Made by a program: the position numbers and the translations under genes. A stretch of DNA of 64,000 nucleotides from the NCBI GenBank assembly GCA_022605405.1, contig JABYQQ010000024.1:558001-622000 (forward strand), written 5' to 3'. The stretch comes from Earliella scabrosa (lineage: Eukaryota > Basidiomycota > Agaricomycetes > Polyporales > Polyporaceae). The stretch's first letter is position 1. Every line of letters starts with the position of its first letter. The notes under the pieces are model-generated. The model was not told where the DNA came from and searched no databases. It was given only the letters and a program-made list of their open reading frames with translations. Of this stretch, positions 16,517 through 50,249 are shown in pieces.

Positions 16517-16541
16517 TTCGAGCTCTGATGAGAAGTAGAAG

Positions 16542-23605: not shown

Positions 23606-23610
23606 TCGTC
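23606..23610. repeat. Gypsy target-site duplication, right copy
   Basis: TCGTC, matching 15840-15844. Confidence 0.95.
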
Positions 23611-24741: not shown

Positions 24742-24785
24742 CTGTACCATTCTGGCTCACTAAACCCCAGGAATGTGGCCCATTC
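24742..24785 (+). repeat. KDZ element 2 left terminal inverted repeat
   Basis: Starts CTGTACCATTCTGGCTCACT and ends ggcccattc. Compared with the complement of 50206-50249 there are six mismatches: two at positions 13-14, three around gaatg/gtacg, and one near the inner end. Confidence 0.85.
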
Positions 24786-25593
24786 GGGTTCGATCGAGCG
24801 CGTTACGTTCCCGTGTTCTCGGGGCGATCGAGGCGGTTCGTGATGTGTAGCGGAGTGGCTCGATCGGAGGTATGTATGCGGGCCACCTGGTGCTGCCGCC
24901 CGGGTTCGATCGGCGTCCGTAGATAGCTGCCGGGGAAGCCCGATCGAGTAGGGGCCCAATGCACATGCATGTACTTTGATCCACTGTGTGCCCGAGCCCC
25001 TTGTAGATCGCTCATTGCCGTAGTTATGCACCGATTGAGGTCTATGCATAACTACACCCTTGTCGCGATCGTATGACATTGAATCTCTTGCCCGACTCCC
25101 CGATCGGCGAAGGTCTATGCCCAGGGTGCACATTAGTTCGTATCCTCCGCGATACTCAGTGTTGCATCCTGATCCAATTTCCGGCGTACGTAGCCGCCCC
25201 CGCTCGCCCGGCGGTTCTGGCAATAAACGTCGTACTCAGTCATGCGTTTCGATCGGGCGGCACCCATCATCACACGGCTGCCCACGAACGGCGTCGATGC
25301 GTCCGCGAAGCCTCCTCTCGATCGACATCTGCCCCGGGCAGTTGATTTTCATTCGCTTCTCGTACCCCGCGCTTTGCCTACTCGGATTTTTGCGTTCGAA
25401 CGGCCCGACGCTTTCCAATGGCTGCGTCTCGATCGAACGTCTCCGTGGGGAGCTCTGCCTCAAATGTCCAGGCACACATGCCGATCGGGCGAACGCATTC
25501 CGCATTTTCCAACACTCGAACCCATTGTTCCATGAGCAGGATTCCATCTCGATCGAAATGAGCTTTCAGGAGGTTCCAGTGCCATGTCCAGCC
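24786..25593. repeat. KDZ element 2 left subterminal region rich in cgatcg
   Basis: No gene. The palindromic core CGATCG, usually as tcgatcgg or tcgatcga, occurs about fifteen times in some 800 bp (for example near 24791, 24823, 24862, 24908, 24941, 25066, 25100, 25249, 25318, 25428, 25482 and 25551). gttcgaac-type palindromes also occur, for example near 25393. The spacing is irregular here and becomes regular in the adjoining 119-bp array. Likely recognition sites for the transposase or another element-encoded factor; inference. Confidence 0.65.
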
Positions 25594-26579
25594 ACGCACC
25601 TGGATCGGGCGCGTAGTGTAGCCACACACCTGAGTTCGAACGGACGCAGTCATGCTGGCAGCTGCATCTCGATCGAGGTCTGCTCGGGGGGGCGTCGGAT
25701 GCATTTCCATGAATGCATCTCGATCGGGCGGGCGACGTGCCCGGACACCCGCGTTCGAACGAATGCAGTCATGCTGGCAGCTGCATCTCGATCGAGGTCT
25801 GCTCCCGGAGGCGTCGTATGCATTTCCATGAATGCATCTCGATCGGGCGGGCGACGTGCCCGGACACCCGCGTTCGAACGAATGCAGTCATGCTGGCAGC
25901 TGCATCTCGATCGAGGTCTGCTCGGGGGGGCGTCGTATGCATTTCCATGAATGCATCTCGATCGTGCGGGCGACGTGCCCGGACACCCGCGTTCGAACGA
26001 ATGCAGTCATGCTGGCAGCTGCATCTCGATCGAGGTCTGCTCGCCGGAGCGTCGTATGCATTTCCATGAATGCATCTCGATCGGGCGGGCGACGTGCCCA
26101 GACACCCGCGTTCGAACGAACGCAGTCATCCGGGCAGCTGCATCTCGATCGAGGTCTGCTCGCCGGAGCGTCGTATGCATTTCCATGAATGCATCTCGAT
26201 CGGGCGGGCGACGTGCCCAGACACCCGCGTTCGAACGAACGCAGTCATCCGGGCAGCTGCATCTCGATCGAGCTCTGCTCCCGGAGGCGTCGTATGCATT
26301 TCCATGAATGCATCTCGATCGGGCGGGCGACGTGCCCAGACACCCGCGTTCGAACGAACGCAGTCATCCGGGCAGCTGCATCTCGATCGAGCTCTGCTCC
26401 CGGAGGCGTCGTATGCATTTCCATGAATGCATCTCGATCGGGCGGGCGACGTGCCCGGACACCCGCGTTCGAACGAATGCAGTCATGCTGGCAGCTGCAT
26501 CTCGATCGAGGTCTGCTCCCGGAGGCGTCGTATGCATTTCCATGAATGCATCTCGATCGGGCGGGCGACGTGACCACAC
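25594..26579. repeat. 119-bp palindrome-containing tandem array
   Basis: About eight copies of a 119-bp unit (phase points 25713, 25832, 25951, 26070, 26189, 26308, 26427 and 26546; the first copy is diverged). Each unit holds ctcgatcgggcgg, the perfect palindrome CGTTCGAACG, ctcgatcgag and a hairpin ATGCATT-tccatg-AATGCAT. Copies differ mainly in short blocks such as ctcccggaggcg versus ctcgccggagcg. Long open frames cross it only because stop codons are absent from the unit; 119 is not a multiple of three, so the frames rotate and are not credible genes. Confidence 0.92.
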
Positions 26580-26833
26580 GCCTGCGTTCGAACGGCATCC
26601 CCGACGAAGAGTCCCCCCTCGATCGGGAAGCTAGAAACCTCACGATACCGTTAACCTGCGGTTTAAGGCTTCGCACCACACATCCAGGTCCCGCTCATGC
26701 ATCTAGCTGCGCCCGGTCGTTGGCTGTCGGCGTCCCTGTATTCCTTGCTCTGCACATCCTTCCGCCCGGTCTGACACCAGAGTAAAAACTGCGGTACATT
26801 CACAAATTCACCATACAATGCGCTACTAACACA
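26580..26833. other. Spacer between array and gene A
   Basis: Contains one more ctcgatcggg near 26617 and the presumed 3' flank of gene A. Nothing else is recognised. Confidence 0.5.
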
Positions 26834-28469: not shown

Positions 28470-31237
28470 ATGAGTACTCGAGGCAACATCTACGAGCTCG
28501 CCGCCCACTGCGAGCATGCCTGGCGTGCCCGCCCGCCTCCCGACCACCCGGATCTCAGAAACTGGGCACGCAGCTTCGCCCCCGACATTCGCGCCCTCCT
28601 CGGTCTCCTCAGTGAGTGCCGTCAGCCCATCACCGTCCCTCCTTTTGTTGTCGCCCTCGCCCACGAGAACAACCGGGCGTACGTTGAGGGCCGGGCGATG
28701 GACTTGGAGCACCTCGATCCCGAGATGGCCCTGGCCGGCGGGCTGCAAATTTTCGAGGCCGATCGCAACTACGTGTTGCTGCCTCAGGAAGGGTGGTGGA
28801 CCCAGTACGGTGAGTACTCTCTTGAGCGATTGTCTTTCGCGGCGTCTTAGGCTGCTATCAGCTCGCACTCCCTATCCACCCGGCATCCCCCAGACCACCG
28901 TTCCTGCCTCCCCTCCCATCGCGCATCCCGCCCCGCCCACCACAACCGGGGCAGCCCCTCCTGCGGAGCCCGCCCTGCCTCCCGCTCCTCCCGCTCCTCC
29001 CGCTCCTCCCGCTCCTCCGTCTACTACTCCCGCGGTCCCGGCCGCCCCTGCGTCCGCCGTTCCTCCCGCTGCACCCTCCGCCCCCGCCCCCTCCAGTCCC
29101 GCCCGCCTGACCATTCGAATTCCGGCCCCCTCTACCCGTACCCAGCCGGAGGCCATGGATGTGGACCCTCCGCTACCCCCGGGCGCACCTACTCCGCCCG
29201 CGCAGCAACCAGAGCCAGCGGGCGAAGAGCGGCGGACGCGCACCACACACAAGGGCAAGGAGGTAGACCGCTCTGCGGCCACCCCTCGCAAGCGCCGAGG
29301 GCGTTCGTCGACATCGCGCCCCCGCAAATCGACCGTCAACCCCCCGCTCCTCACGCCCGCCGAGGCTGCCGTCCATGCGGACCTCGACATGGTCAAGCAA
29401 CGCATCAACAATTGGTGGGCACTCGCGGTAAGTATGTTCGCTTTCTTGTGGAATTGAACTAACTGTCCCCTGCCCCCAGCCTGTTCGCTGCGTCCAGTGC
29501 AGTGATGCGGACCAAAACTGCCGCATCAACCTCGCACACGGGGCGGCTTGTGCCCGCTGCACGACGCACAAGCGAACGTGCTCGTTTACGCTGGCCAGGC
29601 GTCTACCCAAGCCCGCTGCCACCTGGGTACTGCGCGAGTGGTTGCGGAGCGGGATGCACGACACGCATCCTCGCACCGAGCTGCCCGGGCAGTTCACGGG
29701 CGGTGTCACTCCGCCTGCCTGGTGGGCGGCAGAGCACGTCCGCCTGGCGCAGAACCGGCCGCCCGAGGAGAAGGACGCGGACGGCAAGAGGATCCGCTTC
29801 CTCGCCCCCATCTCGGACAGCGAGGACACCGACGGCGAACCCACGCCCAAAAAAGCGCGACAGGAGAGCCCGCCACGATCTGCCTCTCCAGACGACGCAC
29901 CCCCTCCCCCGCCCGCTTCTCCTACCCCGCCGCCGACCACTCTTCCCCCGCCTCCTATTCCGCCGCCCGTCCCGCCTTCAGGCGTGCCAGCAACCGTAGA
30001 TCCCCGCCTTCGGGCTCGGACTGCGCGTCCTCCTCCTCCGGCCCCGCCCGCCGCCCCATCCGCGCCCGCCGCCCCATCCGCGCCCGCCGCCCCATCCGCG
30101 CCTGCCGCCCCATCCGCCCCCGCTCCGCCGGCCCCGCCCGCTCCGCCGGCCCCGCCCGCTCCGCCGGCCCCGCCCGCTCCACCAGCACCGCCCGTCCCAG
30201 GCCCCGTGGCCGCGCCTCCGCTCGCCCCTCGCGCCCCGGTCGCGCCCCCTCCTGCGCCTGCCGCCCCTTCGACTGGCGGGGCGCCCCCGCCCGAGCCGCC
30301 TGCAGCGCCTCCGACGTCCGACGCCCTCCACTCCGACATCATTCCCGCGCATGCCCTAGACCCCGCCCAATTGCGGCGTCTCACAGCAGCAACCGTCCCT
30401 CCCGACGCTCGTAAGTCACCATCTCATAGTCGCGTGTGCGCTAACTGATCCACAGGTCCTTTGGAAGCAATCCGCCCGGTCGCCATCCGGATGGCAGAAC
30501 ATTTTCTGCCAACCGTGAGGGCGACGCTGGCGCAATGGCGGCAGACTGAGCGCGACGAGATCCGCGAGCTGCTCGCGCAGCACTCCCAACAGGAGGCTGC
30601 CGCCCGAGAGCAGGCCCGCGCGGAGCTCCTCAACATCACGGCCCAGGCGCACGCGCGAGAGGAAGAACACCACGCCGAAGTCATGCGGACGATGCAAGCT
30701 CTCCGCGAGAACATGGCGAACCTCGAGCGTCGTCAAAACAACCTCGAGGGCTACCTGGGCGGGCTCACCATCCGCCTGAACGCCGTCGCTGCCGCTGTGT
30801 TCCCCACGCCCGACGGGGAACAGCTTGACTGGCAGTGGCCCCCTCAAGACAACCGGGCGGCACCGGGCGAGCAGCAGGGGGAGGCGGAGGTGCAGTCGGG
30901 ACCTGCGGAGCTGCCGGCGGGCGAGACGCAGGAGGGCGAGCATGACGAGGGCGGGCGGGGCGGCTCCTCGGAGCAGGACGTCGATGGGCTGCGATCTGAG
31001 GTGGGTGACGATGCGCCTGCCACGTCAGTCACCCTGCCCTCCGACGCATCGTCGGGCCCGCAGCCCAGCGCCGCAGGTGGGTCTCTGTTTATGCCCGGGT
31101 CCTCGGAGGCATCGCCGTCTCCGGTCCCCATTCCCCCACCTAGGTGGGGGCCTGCCCGTCGGTCGCTTGTGGTCTACTCCCCCTCGGGCTCTGAGAGGGG
31201 GAGCGATGATGAAGAGGCTCCTATGCACGTCGATTAG
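28470..31237 (+). CDS. KDZ2 cargo gene B: Zn2Cys6-like, proline-rich, coiled-coil protein
   Basis: Four exons with canonical junctions: 28470-28809, 28862-29427, 29480-30410 and 30456-31237. Exon 1 encodes a compact helical N-terminus (MSTRGNIYELAAHCEHAW). Exon 2 is Pro/Ala-rich with a basic patch (TPRKRRGRSSTSRPRKS). Exon 3 opens with CVQC-x6-C-x9-C-ARC-x6-C, the C-x2-C-x6-C-x9-C-x2-C-x6-C spacing of a fungal Zn(II)2Cys6 DNA-binding cluster, followed by a very long Pro/Ala tract (30020-30210) with APSAPAAPSAPA and PPAPPAPPAP repeats. Exon 4 encodes a coiled coil (about 30480-30780) and an acidic Gly/Ser-rich tail ending at 31237. A nuclear DNA-binding role, perhaps on the element's own repeats, is inference. 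The frame is intact. Confidence 0.7.
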
Positions 31238-31437: not shown

Positions 31438-34400
31438 CTACTTGTTTGCGCGACGAACCGAGCTCCGCAACTTCCGCCGTCCCTGAGGTTCATCCACCTC
31501 CATGGGCACCTCCTGGGCTCTGTCTGCGTTACTCGCGGGCGGGTCCGAGAGTGGAGAGGAGCCTCGGGTCGATGGGGCGCCCGTCTTATTGCCCGCCCTA
31601 GATGAGCTCCCAGCCTCGGACTGACCTTGCTGCCCGGCCCCACCACCTTGGCCCCCTCGTCCTCGTCCTCGTCCTCGTCCGCGCGCCCGACCGCCCGAAG
31701 ATTGTCCGCGACCCCGGGCCCCTTTGGGCTTCGCGGGGCCGGGAGAGGTGGGTTCTTCAAGAAGCATCGCAGCTTCCACTTCTCTGTCGGAAGACTGCGA
31801 GGCTGCGCTTGCCGGCCGCGCGATGGAGCGAGTGCCCCGGCTCGATGCCTCGGGCGCAGCGGGTAGGGCCTCGGGCGCGGCGGGTAGGGCCTCGGGCGCG
31901 GCGGGTAGGGCCTCGGGCGTGGCGGGTAGGGCCTCGGGCGGTTGTGCAGCCGTCGTTCCCTTCGCAGGCGCCTTGCGCTTGCCCTTGGTGCCCTGCGCGG
32001 ACTGCTTGCTGGGTTTCGACGTCGATGAGTCCGCCGCCGTGGTATCAGGCGCCGAAGTAGAGGCGGCAGGCAGTCCGGGGGCGGAAGGGGCGCCGCGTTT
32101 CTTCCCAGAGGGCAGAAGGCCGTCGGCAAATGGCATGCGGCCTGTGAGTTCGAGGGGGTGGTGGGCATCCCGACATGCCTTGATGATGGTGTCTCCGATG
32201 TCCGCAATGGCGCTGTGGCTGTCGCGAAGATAGTTGGCCCCTCCGTTTGGAACCGGCACTGTCTCGTCGGGTTCGGTGTCATTGGCAGTTTTGGTGTCGC
32301 GGATGGCCAGACCCGTGATCAGGAACCATTTCTGAACCTCGCCCGCCGAGCTTGATTCCGCCGGGCGGTGACGGGCGATCCACTTGAGGATTGCTTCCCA
32401 TCCCGCCCGGGTCGTATGATGCGCGTCGGGCAGAGATATATCTTTCGACTGCCAACCTTGCCACTCAGAGTTGCGGCTGGGTGGGATCACTGCGCACTTC
32501 GTCATCTAATCTGTGCGTGAGCATGAGGGCGGTTCGATAATGGTAGAGTACGTACCAGGTGTCTCCAGGAGCTAAGAAGCCGTTGATACTCGGGCTCGTC
32601 AGTAAGAGCCCAGAGGTATGCAAAAGGATTCTTGTTCTTGAGGGCCCAAACGGGCGCTCGGTGCTTTGCTTGGCCCACGATTTCGTCGGGCGGAGGAACG
32701 GGCACTTTGTGCGCCGCAGAGATGTCGGCGTTGACCGCGGCCGGGTGATTGGTGGAGGTGGCTTGCGGGCTACCGGGCGAGGACGCCGTCGGGTTGTCCG
32801 GGGAAGGCTCTCTGGGTACCGGCACAGGTTTTTTGACGGGCCGGGCAGCAGGCCCGCGTTTTGGGGGCGCAGACGACGGTCCGGCCTTCGAGGCGGCGAT
32901 GTTCGGGGCGGCGGGTAGCTCGTCCTCGGTAGAGTCGTCCTCGGTGGTAGTCTGCATCTCTTCAAGGTCTCGAGACTTGCGCTTCTGGTTGCCTTTGCGC
33001 TTGAGAAGGCTCTTCTTCTTGCCCTTTGGTGGGGGTGCTTGGGACTCGTCTTCGGACGCCTCCTGGACGTGTTGCTTTTTGGCCCGGGGAGCCTCACGGG
33101 TTCGGTTCTTGCGCCGCTTCTTGGATTTGAGCGCCCGGGCCTCCTCCGGGGCGAGAGGGTTGTCGTACTGGGGGGCCGCGGGCATGTCGTTCACCACGAT
33201 TTGAGCCCAATGAAAGTGTTCGTCCTTGTCGGGCAGGGCCTGGCGGCGAAGGATCTCATCCCAAAGCGGCCCGACGTACGACTGCTTCATGTGGCGGGGC
33301 TCTTTGAACACGACGCCCGAAGGAATCATGCCGGGCGGGAAGAACAGCTCGGGCTGGTGGGCAATGACCCCCCAAGGGACCGACACGTCGTGTGGGGTAC
33401 CAGGCGCATGGCCACAGGCTTGCGCTACGATAGTGGTCAGCTACGACGCCTTTGGTTGAGTGCATTACGAGGGAGGAGTACGTGCCGTATGTTTCTGTCA
33501 GAAACGTGTGCAGGTAGGCCTGCCTTTGTCCATTCTGCACAATGAGCTTGCCGCTGGAGTCCCGGGCCGGCAGTATGACCTCGCCATCGTCAGCAAAGAC
33601 AGGCGTCTTGGGGTCGTCTTTAGGAGCGGGCGTGTCCTCCTTCTCCTCGTCGCCTTCGTCTTCGGATAGCTTCTTTGGGGCGAGCAGCTCCTTCGTGTAG
33701 TGGCACAGGGCGTCGGTAAGATCCCCGAAAAGCTTGCGGTGGGTCTCACTAAGCTTGGGCAGCCCGCTGTTGACAATGAAGTCGCTGGAGTCGAAGGTCG
33801 CCGAGCGAACTCGACCGTCCTTGTCCAAGAAAGACCACGCCCACACGCCCACTATGCGGGCCTGATCGTAGTTCATGGTGACGAAGTTCCGCGCCCAATC
33901 TGCACTGCGCTTGATTGCCATTCTGTACATACCACGGACAGAGATTAGAGATACACAAGGTCGGGCAACTCATCATCATCATCCACTAACTCGCATAGCA
34001 GCTCCTCCGCGGGGCCCTCCTTCGTCCACAGCTCGGCGGTCTCTTCAAACTGTTCGACTTCTTCCTCAGAGAGGGCCTTCCAAATCTCGGCCCGGGCGGT
34101 GTTCAACGCCACCAGGGCGAGCTTGCCCTGTTGCGTAAGCTCCTCCGCCCGGGCAGCAATGCGCTCGTGTTCAAGGATCCAGAAGACCTCTCGGGCGGAT
34201 CACTCCACCTTGACGGCCTTCGGCAGACGCGTTTCCGCAGCCTCGGAGTTGTTGTTGAACCAGTTGGTGAGCTTCTGCGAGGGTGAATCGCCGTCAATGA
34301 CAGGTGACGCTGAGGTAGACAGAGTGGCCCGGCGCGGACGTACGTTACTGATGAATCCTCGGGCGTACCCGTCGTCCGTCTTATGCCCGCGGCCCTCCAG

Positions 34401-34530
34401 GAACCTGTCGATAATTTTTTCTTTGATCTCCTTCTTCTCCTTGCGGGTTTTGCGCGGCCACTTTGGAAGGATCTCCTTCTCCAAGTAGGACGCTTCGTCC
34501 TTAGTGATTCCGAGGTCGGACTGATCAGAC
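31438..34530 (-). CDS. KDZ2 cargo gene C: large nuclear-type basic protein, unknown function
   Basis: A minus-strand multi-exon gene starting MSDQSDLGITKDE at 34530. Exon 1 encodes a charged helical region (YLEKEILPKWPRKTRKEKKE, FLEGRGHKTDDGYARGF), then AREVFWILEHERIAARAEEL, LTQQGKLALVALNTARAEIW and ALSEEEVEQFEETAELWTKE. Later exons give SADWARNFVTMNYDQARIVG, WSFLDKDGRVRSATFDSSDF, GVIAHQPELFFPPGMIPSG, a long Lys/Arg- and Pro/Ser-rich linker, and WEAILKWIARHRP. The C-terminus holds tandem PEALPAA repeats and an RGRGRGRG tract. The A..IWxxLSxEE..x..E.A..W pattern is common in uncharacterised basidiomycete proteins, but I cannot name the family. An in-frame TGA at 34200-34202 is either a nonsense mutation or part of a short phase-0 intron (GTGGAG...CAACAG). 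Confidence 0.55.
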
Positions 34531-34973
34531 ATCTTCGGGCGACGCGGAGAGTGAGCAGCTTGTACGTTCGATGTTTGACCGCGTAAACTTACCAGCGTTT
34601 TGGCCCTTGCTGAGAACCGTGAAGAACCGGACGAGAGAGAGGAGGCTCGGGCGGAGTTTGCCCAGGTGGCAAACGCAAGCGGCGGGCGAAAGAGAAGGTC
34701 GGGCGAGTGAAACGGGGAGCGAACGCGACCGCACTGGCAAAGGCAACGGGATTGATGCGCTGGAGGATAGATGCGTATATATGAAGGGCAGCATGCCTCC
34801 AGCGAACGGCGTTGGCGATCCAAGAGGGCGTGCATTCTCCGCCCTCTTTGATGTGGCCCGGGCGGGCCGGGCACGCGCCCGGTGCGAGGAGATAGGCGAA
34901 GGGACACCTCCGGGCGCCCAGTGGCGTCAGTTGCTTGATCGAAATTGGAACCCTTTGCCCACCTTCTGTCATC
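34531..34973. promoter_or_regulatory. Divergent intergenic region of gene C and the TET/JBP gene
   Basis: 443 bp between opposed starts. A TATA-like tatatatg lies at 34777-34784, about 190 bp upstream of the TET/JBP ATG. The region is rich in cgggcg words. Confidence 0.45.
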
Positions 34974-35826
34974 ATGCCCCCCAGTGACCCCATTGCCTTT
35001 CAGGATGCAGTCAGCTCGTATCTCGTCGACCTCTTTCGTGCCATGCTGGGCAAGCAATCGATGCCACGTCGCCCGGCCCGTGCCTCCGAGGATTGGATCT
35101 GGTCTGATGAGTTGGAGGAGGATCTGATCCATGCGGCGTTGGTCCTAAGCCACGCCTGGGTTTTTGAAGGTCCGTGGCCTTTGACTTGTGATGGGGGACT
35201 ATGCATCATGTGGAGGAGGCAGTGAGGCTGGATTGGGATGCCGAAGACCTTCGTGCCTCCCTCTCTAAGAGGCAGAACGGCATGAACATGGTCAAGGAGG
35301 ACGAGTTACTCGAAATATTCCCCCCCTATGACCCGCCCGAGCAGATCAAGAGCAATTCGATGTCGCTGCTGCGAGGGCCAGCAGTGGCTGTGGATTCCTC
35401 GGGCCGGCTGCTGTATTGGCATCTCCCGGGTATATTCTCGTCCCGTCGTCAGGTGAGTACTTGCACTGCCCGGTGAATCATGCCCGAATCCATGCCCCCC
35501 CCCCATCAGCGCGCCTTTCTGGATGCCACCGCCTGCATCAAAAACCGGATGAAACAGTCCGCTGACCCACACGGCGGGTGGCGTGAATCCCCCCGTTTCT
35601 TCGGGCCAGGTAAAGACTGGCCGCCCGGCCTCTGGCACGGATCGCCAGCAGGCTATCAGGTGGGACACAAGGTGAGAATGGCCTTGTGCACTGTTCAGTG
35701 GAGCCCTGACTGATGGACATGTCCCTGAAGACTGCGAAGTTCCGCCTGGCCCCATCCCAAGCCATGAAACACCGGACCGGGGTGGCATGGGCTCAAGCCA
35801 TGCGCGAATCCGGCGCCCTGTGCAGT

Positions 35827-35834
35827 GCGATACT
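35827..35834. repeat. MITE target-site duplication, left copy
   Basis: GCGATACT, repeated at 36264-36271. An 8-bp duplication is the hallmark of the hAT superfamily. Confidence 0.92.
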
Positions 35835-36263: not shown

Positions 36264-36271
36264 GCGATACT
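36264..36271. repeat. MITE target-site duplication, right copy
   Basis: GCGATACT, matching 35827-35834. Confidence 0.92.
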
Positions 36272-39700: not shown

Positions 39701-41255
39701 GCCCGGCTGCCCAAAAGGCGCTGGAAGACCTGACACCGAAAAAGCACCCGGGCCGGGTGAGGGCCTGGAGGAAGATGGCTGAAGATGCCGCCCGAGACAG
39801 ACGGAACCGCATAGAAGTTATGGATGTGTACGAAGTTGAAGCGTCCAAGAGTGAGTATCGTCCTGCATTGATCGATGCAGAACGGAACGTTGATGCATGT
39901 GTTAGTGCCCACTCGGGCCGAGATTCAGCTGGAACTCACTAAAGCGGAGAACACTGGGGCTCGTAATCTTCGGGGCGTAGCGGCGTGGGTTGCGTCGGGA
40001 CTGAAACTTGAAGAGCAAAGGTAGGGCCTGAGTGTCTACGAAGAATAGAAACTAACGCTGGTTGTAGATTGGTTGTTGCCGCCAAGGCGCGATCAGTTAC
40101 CATCCATGCCCCAGTGGAAGAGAAGTTGGCCCTCGAGCAGATGCGATCAAAACTGCTCGATGACATGGCCAGGTTCCATAAGATGGCGGACAAGCACGTT
40201 CCGAGAGCCGTCCTGCGAGCAGCACTCCAAATCCAGCCTTTGCGAGGTGAAGTCGGGCGCGCATGGGACTCCATTGATGAGTCGCCCGAAGATGAACAGG
40301 ACGTCCGGGACGATGACGAAGGGCCGGGCGAAGCTGACACCGACGACGAAACGGGCTCAGAGGAAGGCGATGCGACATCCCCGGGCCACACCGCCGAGGC
40401 GGCGGGCGAAGAGGACGCCGAAGACTATCCCCTGCCCGGGCGAGTGGTTCCTCCAGAGCAACTGCCCATCGCTCTTCCTTCGACTCTAGGTATGAACGTC
40501 TGTGTGACACACAATCTGCTTGCGCTTGTGCGGGCAGAGAGACGCTTGCGCGTGGGTCAAATGAATGATGCCCTGCACCGTGTGCGGCTGGGCGTGGGGT
40601 ACAAGTCCGTCTTGTATCGAACATCCGTGCGGAAAGCCTCGTCACACCGCCAAAAGCTCCGTAGCTTTGATGAAGTTCACTTGGCTGATGCGGAGGTGCT
40701 GTCAAATGCCCGAGTCTACACAGAGGCTCGAACGTCACTTCTGCGCTTGTACCGGGCAGACGACGCCGCGGACGCCCAAGCGCTGGAGGGATTGGCCAAG
40801 TATCAGGTCCTGGAGAAGGCCGACCTCAAAGCAAACACCGCCCTCGTGGAGCAAGCTGTTCGCGGAGTCAGTCAAAAGCATCTGCCCTGGTTTTGGAGCA
40901 TCGACGTGGATGGTAACTCCAAAGGTGATGGGTGGACAGCAGAAAGTGCGTATGGCTTCAAATAGGGGACAATGACGCTGAGAGTTTGATAGTGGCACGC
41001 GTTTTTTGGCTTCGGGCGCACGCTCGCTTGTCTCGCGTGGAGGAGGAGACGGTGCTGGTGGGGGACGAAATGGAGAGAACACTGGAGACGTACGGGGTAA
41101 AAAAGAGGAAGTGGGCGAGGAGAACGGAAGGAGAACGGCACCGGGCTTGGGCTTTCCGGCAGAGGTCCCTCTGGAACAAGCTACTGGATCATTCGGAGAA
41201 GGAGTTCACTCAGATTCGGATTAAGTATGCCACTCCCGCGCTTTCATTGTTTTGA
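36770..41255 (+). CDS. KDZ-family transposase with CxC2-like cysteine cluster
   Basis: Start MSRARPKVYDLYGQ. A basic/Ser-rich head is followed by a CxC2-type cluster: CSCGSTPSWRCLDC, CWRCCKSLHADHPFHR, WLRQVGVEISLGHHGKPCP (about 37170-37375). An acidic Ser-rich linker (37780-38150) precedes the core: ASVIMDGNFSAQH (first Asp, about 38815-38855), GFFFPHSVVDFQKGE, VLYDIYCFYGVHLLKRF (second Asp, about 39285-39335), IDQFHVHGHQKQCYARYSP (about 39380-39440) and ETLWININQVSDSTRGMTSA (Glu, about 39480-39545). A long, partly acidic C-terminal region ends with HRAWAFRQRSLWNKLLDHSE and a stop at 41253-41255. Unlike the KDZ gene at 3110-8457 it has no Ulp1 domain. Several introns of about 50-60 bp were inferred. 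No disabling change was noticed. Product: nuclear DDE transposase expected to act on the 44-bp ends. Confidence 0.85.
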
Positions 41256-41687: not shown

Positions 41688-42381
41688 ATGTCCACAACCC
41701 CACCGGCGCCCCCATCTCCAACATTTCCTAGTCCCACCAACCCCCAGCAAATTCATGCTGCAGCCCGGCTTGAGTTGGAGCTGATCGCGTGGCGAATTTC
41801 GCAAGCGATCATGCACTATCCTGACCGCCCGAGCGCCCTCTGCTCGGCCCGGTTCGCTCATGGGATTGCCCGAGAGCTGGTGGGTACTATGTTCGGCCTG
41901 TGACCGTACGCTGACTTTGTGCAGTGGGGGGCAATCAGCGCAATGGGCATCGCCAGCAGCGTCGAAGAGATTCTGCCGAATCAGCAAGACCATAGTGGGC
42001 TGCCTGCGCTCATCAAGGCCGTACTGCAGGAGGCGCAGTGGGAGGGGATGCGGATCAATGTGTCGATGGAGCGCCTGAGCTTCGATGCCCTCGAGCCTCT
42101 GCTGTTTACTATGCGAGACTTCTCCGACAGCCACTTGGTGGGGGGCAAATGGTGGACGTGGCCCGAGGTATCAAACGCGGAGATGCCATACTGGTGGAAT
42201 GCTCCAAATGAGCTTGTGGTGCGTATGTACACAACACCCGGGACATCGTGGACTGACGTTGAAAATACAGCCGCGCCCGATGGAGAATCATCTATCCGAG
42301 ATCGGCGGCATGGACGGGCACGTATACGTCATTCGAGAGGCGGCCCGAGCGCACATCAACAGGCCTCTTGGGGAGAGCTAG
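41688..42381 (+). CDS. KDZ companion protein D2 (uncharacterised, three exons)
   Basis: Predicted exons are 41688-41879, 41925-42218 and 42271-42381, all phase 0, about 198 residues. It starts MSTTPPAPPSP, then ELIAWRISQAIMHYPDRP and FAHGIARELV; exon 2 opens WGAISAMGIAS and has GGKWWTWPEV and YWWNAPNELVV; exon 3 opens PRPMENHLSEIGG. Gene D1 at 2260-3042 shows the same WRIS.AI, HGI.REL, W.AI.AMG, WW..P..WW.P pattern and identical intron positions with similar donors, so the two are clearly related. Beyond those landmarks they are strongly diverged. No known domain. Its place directly downstream of the transposase on the same strand suggests co-mobilised accessory function. Confidence 0.72.
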
Positions 42382-42739
42382 AGTAGATGTAATGTTGTAA
42401 CGTGGGCGCGTTGTATACATAACCGAGTCTCGATCGGGCCACGTATCAGAGGCTAATACATGGCTCGATCGAATGGCAGAGCCGGGCACACTGGGAGGCC
42501 GATCGGGCCGTAACATCGATGGGGCTGAAAGGCGCATGGGGAGGAGCAGATCGAGAGCGATTTGCGATCGAGGAGCGGGAGTGGTTTGCCGGGCGGGAGC
42601 AATGTAGGATGAGGTTTGCTTGCTGAGCTACGTACGTCCGCCTGAGTGGGGTGTTGAGTTATAGCAAAGACGATCGCAGTGCATCAGATGCACACAGGTA
42701 GAGATGCACACAGGTAGATGCTCAACGCGACCCGATATG
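42382..42739. repeat. KDZ element 2 right subterminal region rich in cgatcg
   Basis: No gene. CGATCG cores recur (near 42430, 42464, 42501, 42567 and 42671), as at the left end. A short direct repeat, cacacaggtagagatgcacacaggtaga, lies near 42690-42720. Confidence 0.6.
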
Positions 42740-42933
42740 TAACGCCCACACGCACGGGCGGATTGTTCAACGAGAGCCGATATGCTATGGATTGGATCGG
42801 GCGGAAACGGCGGGCACTGGCGCCATCGGATCGAGCCAGATGGCCGTGAACAGATGGAAATGGATCGGACAGCGTACGCGTTGGCCCAACAGCGGCAGGA
42901 GCACTAGAAAGCTACGCACTCTGATCAGTAATG
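42740..42933. repeat. 243-bp subterminal repeat, copy 1 (partial)
   Basis: Matches 49524-49711 nearly base for base (acgcccacacgcacgggcgg ... gcactctgatcagtaatg). Its last five bases, TAATG (42929-42933), are the copia target duplication. Confidence 0.85.
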
Positions 42934-43513
42934 TGTTGAACTTAGGGTTATCCGGCACTGTCCGGACCGATATGTCCCCATATGGACTTGTGGCTATGCG
43001 TTCACATGACGCACAGCATGGGCTATGCTTCTTCGTTACTATATATAGATAACTCTGCATCTGTACGATAGTTCTTTCTTTCCGGACTTTACCTCTACGT
43101 ACCAGTGCGTTCTACGATGTTCCGGATAGTTCCAGACCTTATGTCTGACTCAGACTTGGTGCTCATCCTCGTGTCATACTGACTCATCCTCGCACCATAG
43201 CCTCGTATGCCTCTTACTCATCGTCTTGTGGCTAACATGTGACTGCTTTCTACGCTTACTCAGCTACCTTCCCTCCCTCTATATAAGCAGCTCACATTTC
43301 GCCTCTGCTCTTCAGTCGTTCGCTCACTGACTGAAGAGTAAGTCTCCTACATACATATGCCTTCTACTTACTTACTGACTAAGTACTTGTAGTCTCTCTC
43401 TGTTCGACTTACAGGTACTTATCTATGCAATATAGTCGTTCGCTCACTGACTGAAGATCTCTCTCTGTTCGACTTACAGTCGGCTCCCAGCCTTCCAGGT
43501 CTGAAGTTCATCA
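42934..43513 (+). repeat. Copia 5' LTR
   Basis: 580 bp. TATA box tatataag at 43280-43287. Downstream, tcgttcgctcactgactgaaga and tctctctctgttcgacttacag each occur twice. gaagagtaagt resembles a splice donor and gacttacag an acceptor, so the transcript leader may be spliced. Confidence 0.95.
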
Positions 43514-43533
43514 GGTTATGAGCCCTGCGCTCT
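43514..43533 (+). other. Copia primer-binding site (half-tRNA-Met type)
   Basis: GGTTATGAGCCCTGCGCTCT begins directly at the LTR end. Its complement contains ctcataa, a tRNA anticodon loop with CAU, which fits priming by an internally cleaved initiator tRNA-Met fragment as in Drosophila copia. Confidence 0.65.
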
Positions 43534-44035
43534 GACCGGTTGCTACTTCGTCGACATCTTCGTGCGCACACCTCTCTCTTCGTCGACTCTCTGCCCGTGC
43601 TCCCTCCATCTTTCCTCACCTCTTGACTGTGCCCGCCGACACTGCTGCCAGGGGGACATTCCTGCGCTCGTGACGCAGCCCTGAGCGCTTTTGTTTAGTT
43701 GTCGCGTAGCTAAGTACTGTTGTACAGCCTGTTGTGCTCTCGAGGCATTTGGGCTTTCAGGTATCCCTCTGCCAGGCCACGCATTTGCGCCCGCCAGCAG
43801 TTGTATCCGGGGTGCTTATCACCTTTGGAGACGGAGGACAACCGTGTGGACCCTCCTTACCGTACCCTTTGCTCTCGTATAGCTACTATAGTCTTTCTGG
43901 GCACAGTTGGCAACTTCTATCCAGATTGTTGGGATCTCCAGCTTCCTGACTTTCTTGGCTCGCCTCAATAGGTGTTCCCCATCTACCGTTTCGCACGTGG
44001 CATCGTCAATCATCGCACCCTTCTAGACCACAGTT
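43534..44035 (+). other. Copia leader
   Basis: About 500 bp between the primer site and the long frame. No ATG-initiated frame connects directly to gag-pol. Short frames are present in all phases, and a spliced leader is possible. Confidence 0.4.
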
Positions 44036-47000
44036 TTGGAGCCGACACCAGCATCTCCTCCCTCTGAGGCGGAAGTCGAGGATCTGATTGACTCCCAGTC
44101 GTCGTCTGACTCCTCTGACTACAAACCCACCGTCGACTCTTGTCAGGAACTTCCACACGTTCTCGACGAGGAATACCCTGCCGATTCTCATCTCCATCCG
44201 GAGGACGGCTTCTGGTACAACTGTCACCGGAGTCCTTGTCCTCATCGGTACAACGGGGTTCCCGTTCAACCCAAAGATTATCCTGACACATTCAAGTGGG
44301 CTTTCCCCTCTCCTGACCAAGAGGATTTCCTTGCTGGAGTCAACACTGCCCTTCCAGTCGCATCAGACACACCCTATACCACTCCTCTTCCTTTCATCGT
44401 CCTAATCCCTCCTACTCCGGAGGTTATCCCTGAGCCATTCGAGACTCTCCCTCCTCCTCTCGTCGAGTTACCTCCTCCTATCGCAACACCGCTTCCGCCG
44501 GTCACACCGGTAACAACATCTATAGACTTCTCGGAGGACTATCTCGACTCATCGCACTTTCTCTTATCAATCATGGGAGACGTCAAGCTTGACTCTATCC
44601 CTTCCCTTTCGTCGGCGAACCAGTATACCGACTGGTCTGCCAAGATGAAGGGCTACTTCATCTTCATGGGCTGTTGGGACGTCGTCAACGGCAAGACCAA
44701 ACGTCCGACTGCTGCTGACAAGCAGGAGTCCTGGGACAAGCTAGACGGGCAGGCTCGCGGCATGATGTACATGCGGGTCGCTCAGAGCTTCCATTACATC
44801 CTCGATGCGGAAATTCTCGACACCGTTACAACCAGTGGGTCCTCTACCACTACATCTCGGGAACAGACCGCAGCGGACATGTGGAAGTCCCTGAAGGACA
44901 AGTTTGGCACGCCGAACAGCGCTCATGTCTGGGGACAGTTCGAGACCCTTGTGGCTGAACCTCGGATGAACGAGCAGAAGCCCCTCCAGGATCAGATGAT
45001 GCGTATTGTCAACCGCATGGATGACATCACCAAGAACAAGGTGACACTCTCTGCCCAGATGAAGGCCCTCCTCCTTCTGTCGAAGATTCCGGAGTCCTAT
45101 CGGTCTATGATCTCTGCGCTCATGGCGACCATCGACGTCGACAAGGTCACCGTCGAGGACATCATGTCCAAGACCTTGGCCGAGGAGTCGCTGCGCAAGG
45201 CCGGACAATCCGCGAACCGGGTCTCGCAGACCAAGCCTAAGCCTAAGGGTCCTTGCTCTCACTGCGGTGGCTCTAATCATCATGAGTCTAACTGCTGGAA
45301 CAAGCATCCCGAGAAGAAGCCCAAGGGCAAAGGCAAGGGAAAGGGAAAGGCGAAGGACAAGGATAAGGACAAGGACAAAGGGAATAACAAGGACAATCAG
45401 CCCCATGCGCATACCGTCGTCGAGTCTCAGTCTGTAAATGTAGTCGCGTCGTCTAACATTGTTGGTTCTTTCTACCCCGAGGCCCTTGTTGCCTCTAGTG
45501 AGAACTGGACTGCATGGCTGATGGACTCAGGTGCCTCTCAACACATCACGGGTGACCTAAGTGACTTCTCCGAGTATCAACCGTTTGATACGCCCATCAG
45601 CTTCAATACTGCTGATGCGAGCAACATGATCCTTGCTCTCGGGAAGGGCACGGTCCGTGGTAACACTTGGGTTGATGGTGACAAAGTTCCGATCGCGCTC
45701 ACCCATGTGTACTACATCCCGAAGTTGAGGGGTCGTATCTTCTCGACAGGCACCATTGAGCGCAACGGGTACTCCCTTGTCCAAGGAGATGGGAAGATGT
45801 GCATCTTTGACAAGCTGCCGGAAGGCGCTGTCAAATTTGGTTCGACGATTCGGATCAAGGGTCGCAAGATCCTTGAAGCGGAGTACAACGTCCTGAGCAA
45901 TATCTACTGGGCGAAGCTCGAACTTCACAATGGCCAGCGTGTTCATCTTAACGTCAGCCGTTTTCGGACCTTGCATCGCCGCTTTGGTCATCTCGGCAAG
46001 GACGCGCTGCGCCATCTCCCGAAGAACGTCCGAGGGGTTGATTCTGTTGATTCCCCTGAAGACGAAGATGAACCGTGTGAGGGATGTGCCTGGGGCAAAT
46101 CCACTCGTCTCCCCTTCCCACCTTCTGATAAGCGTGCTACGGAACCACTCGAGCTCGTTCACACCGATCTTGATGGCCCGATGCGCACACAAGCTATCGG
46201 AGGTTACAAGTATTTCGCCGGTTTCATTGATGACTACTCCGGACTCGCCCGTGCTTACTACCTTAAGTCGAAGTCGGATGCGTTCCAAGCGTTCCTCGAC
46301 TACAAGGCGTGGGCTGAGACCCAGACCGGTCGAAAGATCAAGAAGGTCCGCTCGGACCGAGGGGGAGAATACACTTCTACCGAGTTCTCTGAGCTTCTTC
46401 GTTCACACGGGATCGAGCACCAGAAGACTATGCCTGGCTCTCCGCAGCAGAATGGACGCGCTGAGCGCTGGAACCGTACTATCGTTGAAAAAGCCATGGC
46501 CATGCTCCATCAGGCAGGTCTTAGTCACGGTTTTTGGCAACTCGCCGTTGATGCAGCCGTTCATATCTACAATCGTCAACCGATGCGTCGACACAAATGG
46601 CAATGCCCCATCACCAAGTGGGACGGAACCGTTCCAGACGTCTCCTACTTCCGAGTGTTTGGGTGCAAAGCCTTTGTACACGTGCAGAAGGCAAAGCGCG
46701 AAGGGAAACTCGACAAGAAGGCTGTCGAGATGATCTTCGTGGGGTATGAGTCTGGTTCCAAGGGGTATAAGTTTTGGAATCCAGCCAACCGCTCTATCGT
46801 AGTGTCTCGCGATGTGACATTCGATGAAGAGTCTTTCCCTGCTCGTAAACTCCCCGGCAATCATCCTGTTACCCCGGATGACCATCCGTTCCCAGATGAT
46901 CAGTCTGATAAGGCCTCCGAAGCCGATGTCGACGGTCATGAGGACGACCTCCATCCCGAGATTGTTCCTGAACTCCCAGATCTACCACCTGACCCTCCAG

Positions 47001-48877
47001 CGGATGCTCAGCCACCTCCTGCTGAAGCGCCTCCTCCAGCCGACGCCCCTGCTCCTCCGCCGCCGCAACCGCCTCAACCGCCTGCTGTACCACCGCCTAA
47101 GCCTGCTCACAAGCGAGGACGTCACCCTCCAGTGGGAGAACAACCTCCCAGCCTTGCACGTGACAGACCACGGCGTGAGAACGCGGGTAAACGGTCCGAG
47201 TCGAAGACTCGTGATAACGTATACGGCAACGAGCCACCGGCTAAAGTCGATGCCCGGACTGATCCGGATGGCACGCAGCGAGAGGACCAAGCGCTTCTCA
47301 TGTTTCTCATGGCGTCTCAGTACAAAACTGGCATTCCGAACTCCCACAAGGAAGCCATGAAGTCGCCTGAAGCTGAGAAATGGCGCGATGCGGAGAAAGC
47401 GGAGTATGACTCGTTGCTCGAGAATAAGACTTGGGTCCTTGTCCCTCGTCCGAAAGATCGGCACGTGGTCTCTAACCGCTGGGTCTATGACATCAAGCAC
47501 GATGGGCGGTACAAAGCTCGTCTAGTCGCTAAGGGTTTCACTCAGGTGTGGGGCGAGGACTATCACGAGACCTTCTCCCCCGTGGCGCGGTTCGAGTCTA
47601 TCCGGTACCTTCTCGCGCATGCAGCGCTTGAGGACTGGGACATCGAGTCAATGGATGTCAAGACCGCGTTCCTTAACGGCGATCTGGATGAGGAGATCTA
47701 CATGGAACAGCCGGAAGGTTGGATCGTTCCTGGCAAGGAGGATCACGTGTGTCTGCTGAAAAAGGCAATCTACGGTCTTAAGCAGGCATCCCGTCAGTGG
47801 AACGTGAAAATCCACCAGTCGCTTATTAGCCTGGGATTCAAACGGACCTATTCCGATGCCGGGATCTATGTATATCGGCGACAAGGGGGGGATCACGTCA
47901 CTATCGTCGTTCTTTATGTCGACGATCTACTTCTCCTCGGCGATCAGCCTGGCCACTTACAGCACGTGAAGCGTTCGCTTTCTAAGCAGTACAAAATGAC
48001 GGACTTGGGACCAGTTCAGCGTTTCCTTGGTCTTCGCATCACTCGTGACCGTGCTACGCGGATCATCGAGATCGACCAGGAAGAGTACATCCAGTCCGTT
48101 CTCGAGCGCTTTCACATGGCCGACTGTAAGCCGTCGCGTACCCCTCTCCCTGCTGGTGCTGTTCTAGAGTCATCTGAGCACACCGCCACCGATGCGTCGC
48201 GTCAGCGCTATCAGAGCTTGATTGGCAGTCTTCTGTACGCCATGCTCGGTACGCGGCCCGACATAGCCTTTGCTGTCACGCGGCTTTCGAAGTTCAATGC
48301 CAATCCCTCAGATGCGCATCTTCACTATGCCAAGTATGTCCTCCGGTATCTTCAGGGTACTAAGGCGTACCGGCTGCGCTACCAGGGAGCGTCTAATGAC
48401 GGTCTGATTTCGTACTCCGATTCGGACTGGGCTGAAGACCGTGATGATCGGCACTCTACCTCTGGCTTCATCTTTCTGATGGCAGGTGCTGCTATATCGT
48501 GGGCATCGAGGCGTCAGCCTACCATTTCGCTTTCCTCGACCGAAGCGGAGTATAAAGCGGCCTCTGACACTTGTCGTCAATTGGTGTGGCTGAGGACGTT
48601 CGGTGAAGAACTCGGCGATGACATGTCTCGACCAACTCCCATGTGTCTTGACAATCAGGGGTCTATCTTCCTGTCCGTCAATCCCGTGATCGACCGCCGG
48701 ACCAAGCACATCGAGGTTAGATACCACTTCATCCGAGAGCAGGTGGAGTTGGGATCGACCGAGATCTTCTATGTAGCGACTGCGGATCAACTCGCCGACG
48801 CTCTGACTAAGAATGTGCCTTTGGCAATTCAGTCGAAGTTCGTCCAAGAGATTGGTCTTGCTTATGTCACATCTTGA
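44036..48877 (+). CDS. Copia gag-pol polyprotein
   Basis: An uninterrupted frame of about 1,613 codons. It opens without an ATG; the first in-frame ATG is at 44573 (MGDVKLDSIPS, like usual copia gag starts). The preceding 179 codons are Pro- and acid-rich with FWYNCHRSPCPHRYNG, so an upstream spliced exon may supply the start. Domains: gag with a CCHC knuckle CSHCGGSNHHESNC (about 45254-45295), protease MDSGASQHITGD (about 45523), integrase finger HRRFGHLG...CEGCAWGK (45974-46100), integrase core with VHTDLDGP, DDYSG and SPQQNGRAERWN, a Pro-rich spacer (about 46970-47110), reverse transcriptase with ARLVAKGFTQ and YVDDLLLLGD (about 47915), and RNase H with SYSDSDWAEDRDD and SLSSTEAEYKAAS. Stop at 48875-48877. 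No broken motif seen. Confidence 0.95.
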   Translation: MEPTPASPPSEAEVEDLIDSQSSSDSSDYKPTVDSCQELPHVLDEEYPADSHLHPEDGFWYNCHRSPCPHRYNGVPVQPKDYPDTFKWAFPSPDQEDFLAGVNTALPVASDTPYTTPLPFIVLIPPTPEVIPEPFETLPPPLVELPPPIATPLPPVTPVTTSIDFSEDYLDSSHFLLSIMGDVKLDSIPSLSSANQYTDWSAKMKGYFIFMGCWDVVNGKTKRPTAADKQESWDKLDGQARGMMYMRVAQSFHYILDAEILDTVTTSGSSTTTSREQTAADMWKSLKDKFGTPNSAHVWGQFETLVAEPRMNEQKPLQDQMMRIVNRMDDITKNKVTLSAQMKALLLLSKIPESYRSMISALMATIDVDKVTVEDIMSKTLAEESLRKAGQSANRVSQTKPKPKGPCSHCGGSNHHESNCWNKHPEKKPKGKGKGKGKAKDKDKDKDKGNNKDNQPHAHTVVESQSVNVVASSNIVGSFYPEALVASSENWTAWLMDSGASQHITGDLSDFSEYQPFDTPISFNTADASNMILALGKGTVRGNTWVDGDKVPIALTHVYYIPKLRGRIFSTGTIERNGYSLVQGDGKMCIFDKLPEGAVKFGSTIRIKGRKILEAEYNVLSNIYWAKLELHNGQRVHLNVSRFRTLHRRFGHLGKDALRHLPKNVRGVDSVDSPEDEDEPCEGCAWGKSTRLPFPPSDKRATEPLELVHTDLDGPMRTQAIGGYKYFAGFIDDYSGLARAYYLKSKSDAFQAFLDYKAWAETQTGRKIKKVRSDRGGEYTSTEFSELLRSHGIEHQKTMPGSPQQNGRAERWNRTIVEKAMAMLHQAGLSHGFWQLAVDAAVHIYNRQPMRRHKWQCPITKWDGTVPDVSYFRVFGCKAFVHVQKAKREGKLDKKAVEMIFVGYESGSKGYKFWNPANRSIVVSRDVTFDEESFPARKLPGNHPVTPDDHPFPDDQSDKASEADVDGHEDDLHPEIVPELPDLPPDPPADAQPPPAEAPPPADAPAPPPPQPPQPPAVPPPKPAHKRGRHPPVGEQPPSLARDRPRRENAGKRSESKTRDNVYGNEPPAKVDARTDPDGTQREDQALLMFLMASQYKTGIPNSHKEAMKSPEAEKWRDAEKAEYDSLLENKTWVLVPRPKDRHVVSNRWVYDIKHDGRYKARLVAKGFTQVWGEDYHETFSPVARFESIRYLLAHAALEDWDIESMDVKTAFLNGDLDEEIYMEQPEGWIVPGKEDHVCLLKKAIYGLKQASRQWNVKIHQSLISLGFKRTYSDAGIYVYRRQGGDHVTIVVLYVDDLLLLGDQPGHLQHVKRSLSKQYKMTDLGPVQRFLGLRITRDRATRIIEIDQEEYIQSVLERFHMADCKPSRTPLPAGAVLESSEHTATDASRQRYQSLIGSLLYAMLGTRPDIAFAVTRLSKFNANPSDAHLHYAKYVLRYLQGTKAYRLRYQGASNDGLISYSDSDWAEDRDDRHSTSGFIFLMAGAAISWASRRQPTISLSSTEAEYKAASDTCRQLVWLRTFGEELGDDMSRPTPMCLDNQGSIFLSVNPVIDRRTKHIEVRYHFIREQVELGSTEIFYVATADQLADALTKNVPLAIQSKFVQEIGLAYVTS

Positions 48878-48888
48878 ACGAGTGGGAG
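48878..48888 (+). other. Copia polypurine tract
   Basis: acgagtgggag directly before the 3' LTR start TGTTGAAC; the purine run is the expected plus-strand primer. Confidence 0.7.
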
Positions 48889-49468
48889 TGTTGAACTTAG
48901 GGTTATCCGGCACTGTCCGGACCGATATGTCCCCATATGGACTTGTGGCTATGCGTTCACATGACGCACAGCATGGGCTATGCTTCTTCGTTACTATATA
49001 TAGATAACTCTGCATCTGTACGATAGTTCTTTCTTTCCGGACTTTACCTCTACGTACCAGTGCGTTCTACGATGTTCCGGATAGTTCCAGACCTTATGTC
49101 TGACTCAGACTTGGTGCTCATCCTCGTGTCATACTGACTCATCCTCGCACCATAGCCTCGTATGCCTCTTACTCATCGTCTTGTGGCTAACATGTGACTG
49201 CTTTCTACGCTTACTCAGCTACCTTCCCTCCCTCTATATAAGCAGCTCACATTTCGCCTCTGCTCTTCAGTCGTTCGCTCACTGACTGAAGAGTAAGTCT
49301 CCTACATACATATGCCTTCTACTTACTTACTGACTAAGTACTTGTAGTCTCTCTCTGTTCGACTTACAGGTACTTATCTATGCAATATAGTCGTTCGCTC
49401 ACTGACTGAAGATCTCTCTCTGTTCGACTTACAGTCGGCTCCCAGCCTTCCAGGTCTGAAGTTCATCA
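48889..49468 (+). repeat. Copia 3' LTR
   Basis: 580 bp, same as 42934-43513, with the TATA box at 49235-49242. Confidence 0.95.
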
Positions 49469-49860
49469 TAATGTCGATCGTACGCTGTGCGTGGACATGT
49501 GCCCAGGTGATTCAATCCAAATGTACGCCCACACGCACGGGCGGATCGTTCAACGAGAGCCGATATGCTATGGATTGGATCGGGCGGAAACGGCGGGCAC
49601 TGGCGCCATCGGATCGAGCCAGATGGCCGTGAACAGATGGAAATGGATCGGACAGCGTACGCGTTGGCCCAACAGCGGCAGGAGCACTAGAAAGCTACGC
49701 ACTCTGATCAGTAATGTCGATCGTACGCTGTGCGTGGACATGTGCCCAGGTGATTCGATCCAAATGTACGCCCACACGCACGGGCGGATCGTTCAACGAG
49801 AGCCGATATGCCATGGATTGGATCGGACTGGAACGTAGTGAACGTGCTCCATCGGATCGA
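49469..49860. repeat. 243-bp subterminal repeat, copies 2 and 3 (copy 3 partial)
   Basis: Copy 2 runs from 49469 to 49711 and copy 3 from 49712 to about 49860, where similarity fades after ggattggatcgg. Each contains tcgatcgtacg, gattggatcggg, catcggatcgagcc and atggatcggac. With the partial copy at 42740 this makes about 2.5 units split by copia. Open frames across it are incidental. Confidence 0.85.
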
Positions 49861-50205
49861 GCCAGCGGGCCGGGCGTACGTATGAAGGGATGGGGCAGCA
49901 TGCGCGTTGGTCAAGTCGATCCGCCCAACCCTACGCCGATACGCGCGGGCGGATCGTGCCGGGCGGCTGAACATCCGCCAGCCCAAATCGACGCAGAGCG
50001 GCGGTCAAGCAGTCGGTGCACGCACGAGGAATGGTGAACCATATTTGAGTATTAGTATATGATTGGACTGGATTTGTATTGAGGGTATAAAAGTGGGTAA
50101 GAAGCAACTGCAGGTAGGGTACTCGATCGGGGCACAGGTTCGGGCAGCATGGCCCGGCTCGATCGGCCCTTCATGAGAGGGAGTGTGTACTATTCGATCC
50201 ATTTT
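49861..50205. other. Right inner flank of KDZ element 2
   Basis: No gene. More gatcg words (near 49915, 49953, 50124, 50159 and 50196) and cgggcggatcgtgccgggcgg. It runs into the terminal inverted repeat. Confidence 0.5.
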
Positions 50206-50249
50206 GAACGGGCCACGTACGTGGGGTTTAGTGAGTTAGAATGGTACAG
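50206..50249 (-). repeat. KDZ element 2 right terminal inverted repeat
   Basis: Complement starts CTGTACCATTCTAACTCACT; 38 of 44 bases match 24742-24785. Followed by TAT, as at 24739-24741. Confidence 0.85.

Follow-up and report, generated by a model that had tools for sequence, protein, structure and literature searches.

The stretch of DNA analysed here, a 64-kb window (C24:558001-622000) of the 51.7-Mb genome of Earliella scabrosa, a wood decayer of the Polyporales, contains an element of 25,567 bp that we regard as a degenerate copy of a six-gene KDZ cut-and-paste transposon, in which a KDZ transposase gene travels together with a TET/JBP dioxygenase gene and four further genes. We consider this reading, together with the mechanism proposed below, to be likely. 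Sequence comparison gives good support to the view that the gene set, in the order A(-) B(+) C(-) TET(+) KDZ(+) D(+), behaves as one travelling unit, and the element probably belongs to the Kyakuja lineage of the KDZ superfamily. Judged by its reading frames, the copy in the window is a decayed one, with its own TET and transposase broken. All positions are those of the whole window, and the coordinates of the features are collected in Table 1.

An initial annotation of the same DNA had placed the ends of the element at a pair of 44-bp inverted repeats with TAT flanks. The repeats are present at 24742 and 50249 (38 of 44 positions identical). However, alignment with other elements that share these ends shows the conservation to extend some 30 bp beyond them, so that TAT is internal and was rejected as a duplication. 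The element extends from 24713 to 50279, and its outermost termini are flanked by a perfect 7-bp duplication, GAGCAGG, which replaced an initial reading of 6 bp. Its first letters are GA and its last are TG; the two tips differ, the left being GAGCCC[A/G]TTCAGTAACAAT and the right CACA[A/G]AGTTCAGTAGAAAT, each read inwards, and the long, imperfect inverted repeats begin about 8 nt inside.

The initial annotation had also proposed a comparison of junctions with those of other copies, and elements with the same ends were found. With the left 499 bases as query, bases 2-57 were matched at 93-95% in six more places of the genome, namely two pairs on C7 (at 230 kb, 3.4 kb apart, and at 971 kb, 6.7 kb apart) and single ends on C23 and C40. 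A pattern search allowing up to three mismatches returned eight perfect inner ends and two sites with three mismatches, against one for the reversed control; the eight perfect ends belong to the window element and to three others, two on C7 and one split across C23 and C40. A 7-bp duplication stands beside the conserved tips in all four elements whose left and right tips were both read: GAGCAGG in the window, TGCGCGG at locus L073, TCTAGGA at L074 and GCTCCTC in the C23/C40 pair. Because the left tip on C23 and the right tip on C40 share GCTCCTC, they probably represent a single insertion whose halves came to lie on different contigs, apparently through rearrangement or misassembly, and the fourth duplication lends the overall reading slight further support without altering its likelihood. 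Loci L075 and L076, which represent the two halves, were accordingly rejected as separate elements, their outer 7-mers being identical; by eye, the flanks of L075 (4538; C23:741537) and L076 (C40) resemble parts of one sugar-transporter-like gene. L073, L074, L075 and L076 are palindromic elements with the same ends as the window element and internal arrays of about 74 bp. None of the KDZ matches of the genome falls inside them, which makes them likely non-autonomous partners.

The size of 25 kb given in the initial annotation is correct for the span but not for the native element. A copia retrotransposon of about 6.5 kb, carrying RVT_2 (E = 2e-77), integrase and gag domains, is a recent insertion. 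It split a 243-bp tandem array on the right side, of which the repeat at 42737-42934 is a severed partial copy. A second insertion, a miniature inverted-repeat transposable element (MITE), lies within the TET gene. Once both insertions and their extra duplications are removed, the net element measures 18,589 bp.

Between the ends lie the six genes that had been annotated: TET/JBP, CxC2 and KDZ domains were found, and A, B, C and D can all be modelled as genes, with open frames in the models of A and B. Gene B has a cysteine spacing (CX2CX6CX9CX2CX6C) that, by pattern match in the window copy, fits the Zn2Cys6 pattern CX2CX6CX5-12CX2CX6-8C. The same spacing is seen by eye in the B copies of two diverged relatives, on C26 and C18, and the C-terminus of B appears coiled-coil-like. 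Pfam gave no match for the exon of B in the window or on C26, nor for gene D. Gene C contains an in-frame stop near 34200, within a segment that runs without interruption in the C26 and C18 copies. The HMG_box profile, scored on the C26 and C18 copies of gene C, gave E of about 6e-4, a weak and divergent match below the curated cut-off. Iyer and colleagues reportedly found in 2014 that TET genes are linked to KDZ elements that also encode additional proteins, including one with a divergent HMG domain, and the weak HMG_box match of the C26 and C18 copies recalls that description. To this extent the accessory genes, whose combination the initial annotation did not recognise, are less foreign than they had seemed. 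Protein database searches with residues 1-436 of B and with gene C of C26 found no relative among 8,000 candidates each and missed their own products as well, low-complexity words having probably filled the list.

The TET gene of the window matches the solved CcTet (E = 7e-16) and retains the HxD, H and R residues. The two parts on either side of the MITE are contiguous in the six closest relatives (L040, L041 and L042, which are near-identical copies, L049, L055 and, with one unaligned residue allowed, L053), so that the MITE interrupts the coding sequence. At the position corresponding to 337 of CcTET the window copy has Glu, where Asp occurs in all 23 of the other TET loci that aligned (of the 29 others, 6 were unaligned at E 1e-5). 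This Asp is essential for 5-methylcytosine (5mC) activity of CcTET according to the main text of Kojima 2025 (PMC12730594). An interrupted gene with Glu in place of Asp does not bear out the earlier proposal that this copy supplies its own 5mC-oxidising enzyme. In the KDZ frame an in-frame stop occupies 37123-37125, a position that is a sense codon in 15 of 15 aligned loci, among them ten close relatives linked to TET, which comprise nine distinct sequences. The three conserved acidic residues of the KDZ domain, which we take to be catalytic, are present in the window copy and conserved in its aligned relatives (first D, 3/3; second D, 16/16, with 5 more not covering it; E, 21/21). Given a TET gene split by a MITE and a transposase with an in-frame stop, we interpret the copy as probably non-autonomous.

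The gene set recurs across the genome. The locus counts that follow reflect our grouping of matches for D and KDZ, and are lower bounds for C. Gene C, with the C26 copy as query, gave at least 43 exon matches in at least 12 loci, and each of the 12 is on the upstream side of a TET gene and transcribed away from it; the share of the genome no more than 8 kb from a TET is about 1.2%. At 11 of these loci KDZ and then D follow downstream of TET on the same strand. At the twelfth, C14:277500, they also follow on the same strand, KDZ at about 21 kb and D at about 23 kb; the stretch C14:277500-300914 has the look of a same-strand element whose gap of about 21 kb between TET and KDZ perhaps results from an insertion. 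As the loci on C26, C35 and C37, the two on C24 and those on C11 and C19 resemble mutual copies in score and spacing, about eight distinct elements are represented. Gene D recurs as a third member next to TET and KDZ: 42 exon matches group into 27 loci, 26 of which lie within 25 kb of a TET.

Arranged by neighbours, the 39 TET matches fall into 11 that lie upstream of KDZ on the same strand, with D and C; 9 that are convergent with KDZ, with D present and C absent within 8 kb; the C14 locus, with C and a distant KDZ and D; and 18 in other arrangements. The last comprise 6 convergent pairs without D, 2 with D and no KDZ within 25 kb, 2 in which KDZ lies on the same strand (11.5 and 22 kb away) without D or C, 7 with none of these genes and 1 with an upstream KDZ only. 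The other three aligned copies of gene C are 25-41% identical to the C26 copy, a divergence that, with C found at no place away from TET, points to long joint inheritance.

The closest view of this recurrence comes from the C26 element, which matches the window in the order and orientation of B, C, TET, KDZ and D and of an A whose similarity is weak. In tblastn comparisons of 342400-346000 and 352600-362700 of C26 with the window (no composition correction, database size 50 Mb), the best stretches were B with E of 2e-14 and 2e-9 and C with 6e-23 and 6e-15, followed by weaker stretches of C (C3, 0.17; C4, 4e-4; C5, 3e-4). The A-like protein of C26 carries GPFG repeats. The element is bounded by inverted arrays with a period of about 166 bp and spans about 19.5 kb; its exact ends and duplication were looked for and not found. 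On C18, gene C and the zinc cluster of B are arranged as in the window. Between TET and C of that element, the first C exons are present once more in a partial copy (L081, 1113-1482). At 21-25 kb of C24, gene C is accompanied by a frame at the position of B that is coiled-coil-like by eye, with no B match. The co-occurrence of A to D that the initial annotation had wanted checked is thus seen on C26, with A weak and between different subterminal arrays. That the set moves as a unit, as had been suggested, agrees with the recurrence of order and orientation in diverged elements and with the 7-bp duplication at the outermost termini.

The CGATCG-rich arrays that had been noticed on both sides are equally real. 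The left subterminal region holds 29 CGATCG against 3.5 expected (14 against 1.1 if only one unit of the 119-bp array is counted), the right region 8 against 0.9 and the interior 5 against 6.5; over the fetched loci, L073 has 25 against 1.2 and L074 27 against 1.0, counts in which copies within arrays and arms are not mutually independent. Three boxes nearest the end are fixed in position. They lie at 79, 113 and 149 in the left end of the window element, in L073 and in L075, at 80, 114 and 150 in L076, and at 84, 118 and 154 at the right end of L073, with the caveat that L073 to L076 are similar to one another throughout. Outside the boxes, positions 91-170 of the window and L073 are identical at 26 of 68 sites, whereas the terminal repeat agrees at 68 of 78, and the three phased boxes hold their position in elements that share only their ends with the window element. 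The C26 arrays contain no CGATCG in 800 and 1,450 bases; GGTACC and GCCGGC occur there instead, in counts of 2-5, in tandem copies.

With respect to known systems, the window element carries both PF18758 and a CxC zinc domain, as members of the KDZ superfamily do, in a transposase frame that is not intact in this copy. Its 7-bp duplication (7 bp in 4/4) has the length of Kyakuja and not the 8 bp of Zisupton and Dileera. The TET is of the AG type by its HxD...H...R residues and its closeness to CcTET, and departs from that type in lacking Asp at 337. The main text of Kojima 2025 (PMC12730594) describes TET-positive Kyakuja DNA transposons in Agaricomycetes, with 7-bp duplications, states that CcTET oxidises 5mC and proposes an escape from methylation silencing, so that the idea of erased silencing put forward in the initial annotation had a precedent. 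The window element resembles these transposons in combining KDZ and an AG-type TET near CcTET in one unit with a 7-bp duplication, in the Polyporales, and differs from that account in its subterminal arrays of CpG palindromes and its four further genes. We found no accessory gene described for Kyakuja in that main text, according to which transposons with TET code for no other base-modifying protein (a glycosyltransferase, for example). Transposition has been reported for KDZ1, KDZ2 and KDZ3 of Cryptococcus neoformans, with inverted repeats and target-site duplications; as far as the sections of that source covered here go, these are elements of 9-11 kb with CxC1 in place of CxC2, inverted repeats of 139-241 bp and duplications of 4-8 bp, and TET appears only in the title of a reference (PMC12810828). 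In the literature searched, we came across neither the six-gene order nor the boxes; the text of Iyer 2014 and the supplement of Kojima 2025 lay outside it, and we make no claim to novelty. The element is an unusually well-bounded variant of the published TET-KDZ kind, a real though degenerate copy of what is most likely a unit.

The mechanism that we propose builds on what can be read directly: the termini, the 7-bp duplication, the KDZ domain, the recurring gene order and the fixed CGATCG boxes. The KDZ transposase would cut the ends and join them to a target with a 7-bp stagger. B, through its zinc cluster, and C, through its HMG-like region, may be the proteins that bind these boxes and give the end complex its shape, and TET would oxidise methylcytosine in the CpG-rich ends and promoters and so keep them free of methylation silencing. 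The palindromic elements with the same ends could be mobilised in trans, and the window copy, if still mobile, would depend on enzymes made elsewhere. TnpA of En/Spm is an element-encoded protein that acts on the silencing of its own element at subterminal repeats. Vandal elements of Arabidopsis likewise encode an anti-silencing protein (cited in the main text of Kojima 2025, PMC12730594), and for B or C of the window element both are analogies only.

Several observations weigh against the proposed reading. Neither the pattern search nor the KDZ matches revealed another element of autonomous size with these ends in the genome, and because no KDZ match lies at the other elements that share them, the link between termini and transposase rests on one element and its 7-bp duplication. 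Gene A is the weakest link of the set, since tblastn of the window gene against C26 gave no match and its similarity is indicated by shuffling (2 of 2,000 shuffles reach the score of its C-terminus against that of the C26 A-like protein, a weak homology). Gene C was detected within 8 kb at none of the 15 convergent TET-KDZ pairs, 9 of which have D, and 50 of 83 KDZ loci (grouped from 129 matches) have no TET within 25 kb, with 33 having one; neither TET nor A-C is therefore needed by KDZ elements generally. Transposase copies with other ends and without A-C were what the initial annotation had named as counting against a common unit. In a partial check of this, the C26 element, with its different arrays, includes B, C and a weak A, and the convergent pairs indicate that A-C do not belong to every TET-KDZ element. 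Finally, the main text of Kojima 2025 (PMC12730594) gives two Laccaria families of Kyakuja termini of CA..TG without inverted repeats, while the window element has long imperfect inverted repeats and a left end that is not CA.

Among the alternatives, the one that survives best concerns the role of TET, which might oxidise methyladenine, or protect against methylation-linked mutation, instead of lifting 5mC silencing. The main text of Kojima 2025 (PMC12730594) reports that CcTET also acts on 6-methyladenine and that Kyakuja TETs by and large retain the residues involved; Asp is found at the 337 position in every aligned relative (23/23). That Asp fits 5mC activity equally well, being essential for it in the same source, and the CpG observed/expected ratio of 0.90 in the TET-KDZ region, which indicates no depletion (0.96 in the nested copia versus 0.51 in the repeat-flanked stretch 15845-23606), decides nothing. 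We consider this alternative unlikely. It is less probable still that the element is a nest, in which the 44-bp ends belong to the palindromic family and a separate KDZ-TET element has inserted between them, so that the six genes would not be mobilised by these ends. Nesting is frequent here, as copia and the MITE attest, and the three further elements carrying these ends are free of KDZ matches; against this, the gene set occupies the space up to both subterminal zones, the window compared with itself yielded no further inverted pair within the element (a comparison not aimed at diverged inner ends), and the 7-bp duplication is that of Kyakuja (Kojima 2025, PMC12730594, main text). Least probable is that A, B and C are host genes adjoining or captured by a TET-KDZ element and without a role in it: the lack of C at the convergent pairs and single-exon searches with A, the B tail and C, which found no second copy in the genome, would suit such passengers, but those searches were too weak, having missed diverged relatives that the direct C26 comparison and the longer C query recovered (so that single-copy status was rejected as evidence of foreign cargo), and C stands beside TET at every one of its loci in copies of low identity.

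The surroundings of the six-gene element hold further mobile and repeated sequences. Another TET-KDZ element, a convergent one with TET, then D, then KDZ on the opposite strand, begins before the window (C24:557358) and lies in the left part of it (2326-6469). Identical 657-bp direct repeats, 7.1 kb apart, delimit 15845-23606 and are probably the long terminal repeats (LTRs) of another retrotransposon, and a tandem array with a period of 171/330 bp fills the left edge of the window (1-2162). Just beyond the right end, a small inverted-repeat element at 50400-50553 has tips (TACTGTACCATT) resembling the inner portion of the large element's ends; it is perhaps a MITE of a related family.

Table 1. 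Features of the KDZ element and their positions in the 64-kb window.
Feature	Position	Strand	Evidence or remark
Target-site duplication, left copy GAGCAGG	24706..24712		sequence comparison of junctions
Left terminus and long imperfect inverted repeat	24713..24790	+	68/78 identical to L073 left end
Three phased CGATCG boxes, left	24791..24866		at 79, 113 and 149 from the end (24791, 24825, 24861)
119-bp tandem array, 8.2 copies	25622..26594		two CGATCG per unit
Gene A, LGGP-repeat protein, ~400 residues	26834..28118	-	open frame; first exon and start inferred
Gene B, 4 exons, ~870 residues, open	28470..31237	+	exon model of this study
Gene C, large basic protein	31438..34532	-	exon borders approximate
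TET/JBP dioxygenase gene, interrupted	34974..36692	+	TET/JBP domain, E 3e-11
429-bp MITE in TET coding sequence	35835..36263		inverted tips; 8-bp duplication GCGATACT
KDZ transposase gene, CxC2 and KDZ domains	36770..40965	+	CxC2, E 2e-25; KDZ (PF18758), E 7e-26
Gene D (D2 of the initial annotation)	41688..42386	+	annotated C8Q76DRAFT_698094
Nested Ty1/copia retrotransposon	42934..49468	+	identical 581-bp block in both LTRs; 5-bp duplication TAATG
243-bp tandem repeat, right side	49465..49910		further partial copy at 42737-42934
Two phased CGATCG boxes, right	50124..50165		at 115 and 151, counted from the right tip
Right terminus and inverted repeat	50202..50279	-	inverted-repeat and tip comparison
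Target-site duplication, right copy GAGCAGG	50280..50286		junction comparison

Taking the window element as a degenerate member of a family of six-gene KDZ transposons, a tentative and rather doubtful extension of the mechanism is that it works as a self-contained apparatus of targeted demethylation: B and C would recognise the phased CpG palindromes (79, 113, 149) and bring TET to the ends of their own element, only these ends would become competent for transposition, and each family would have palindromes of its own that fit its B, the pair of B and box acting as a specificity code among rival TET elements of one genome. How a small dioxygenase finds its own element has no explanation in the literature covered. 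The recurrent partners (B, C, D and A) and the fixed CpG palindromes provide concrete candidates and a direct test, and a single genome with about a dozen such elements offers a natural experiment on the competition of transposons over DNA methylation.

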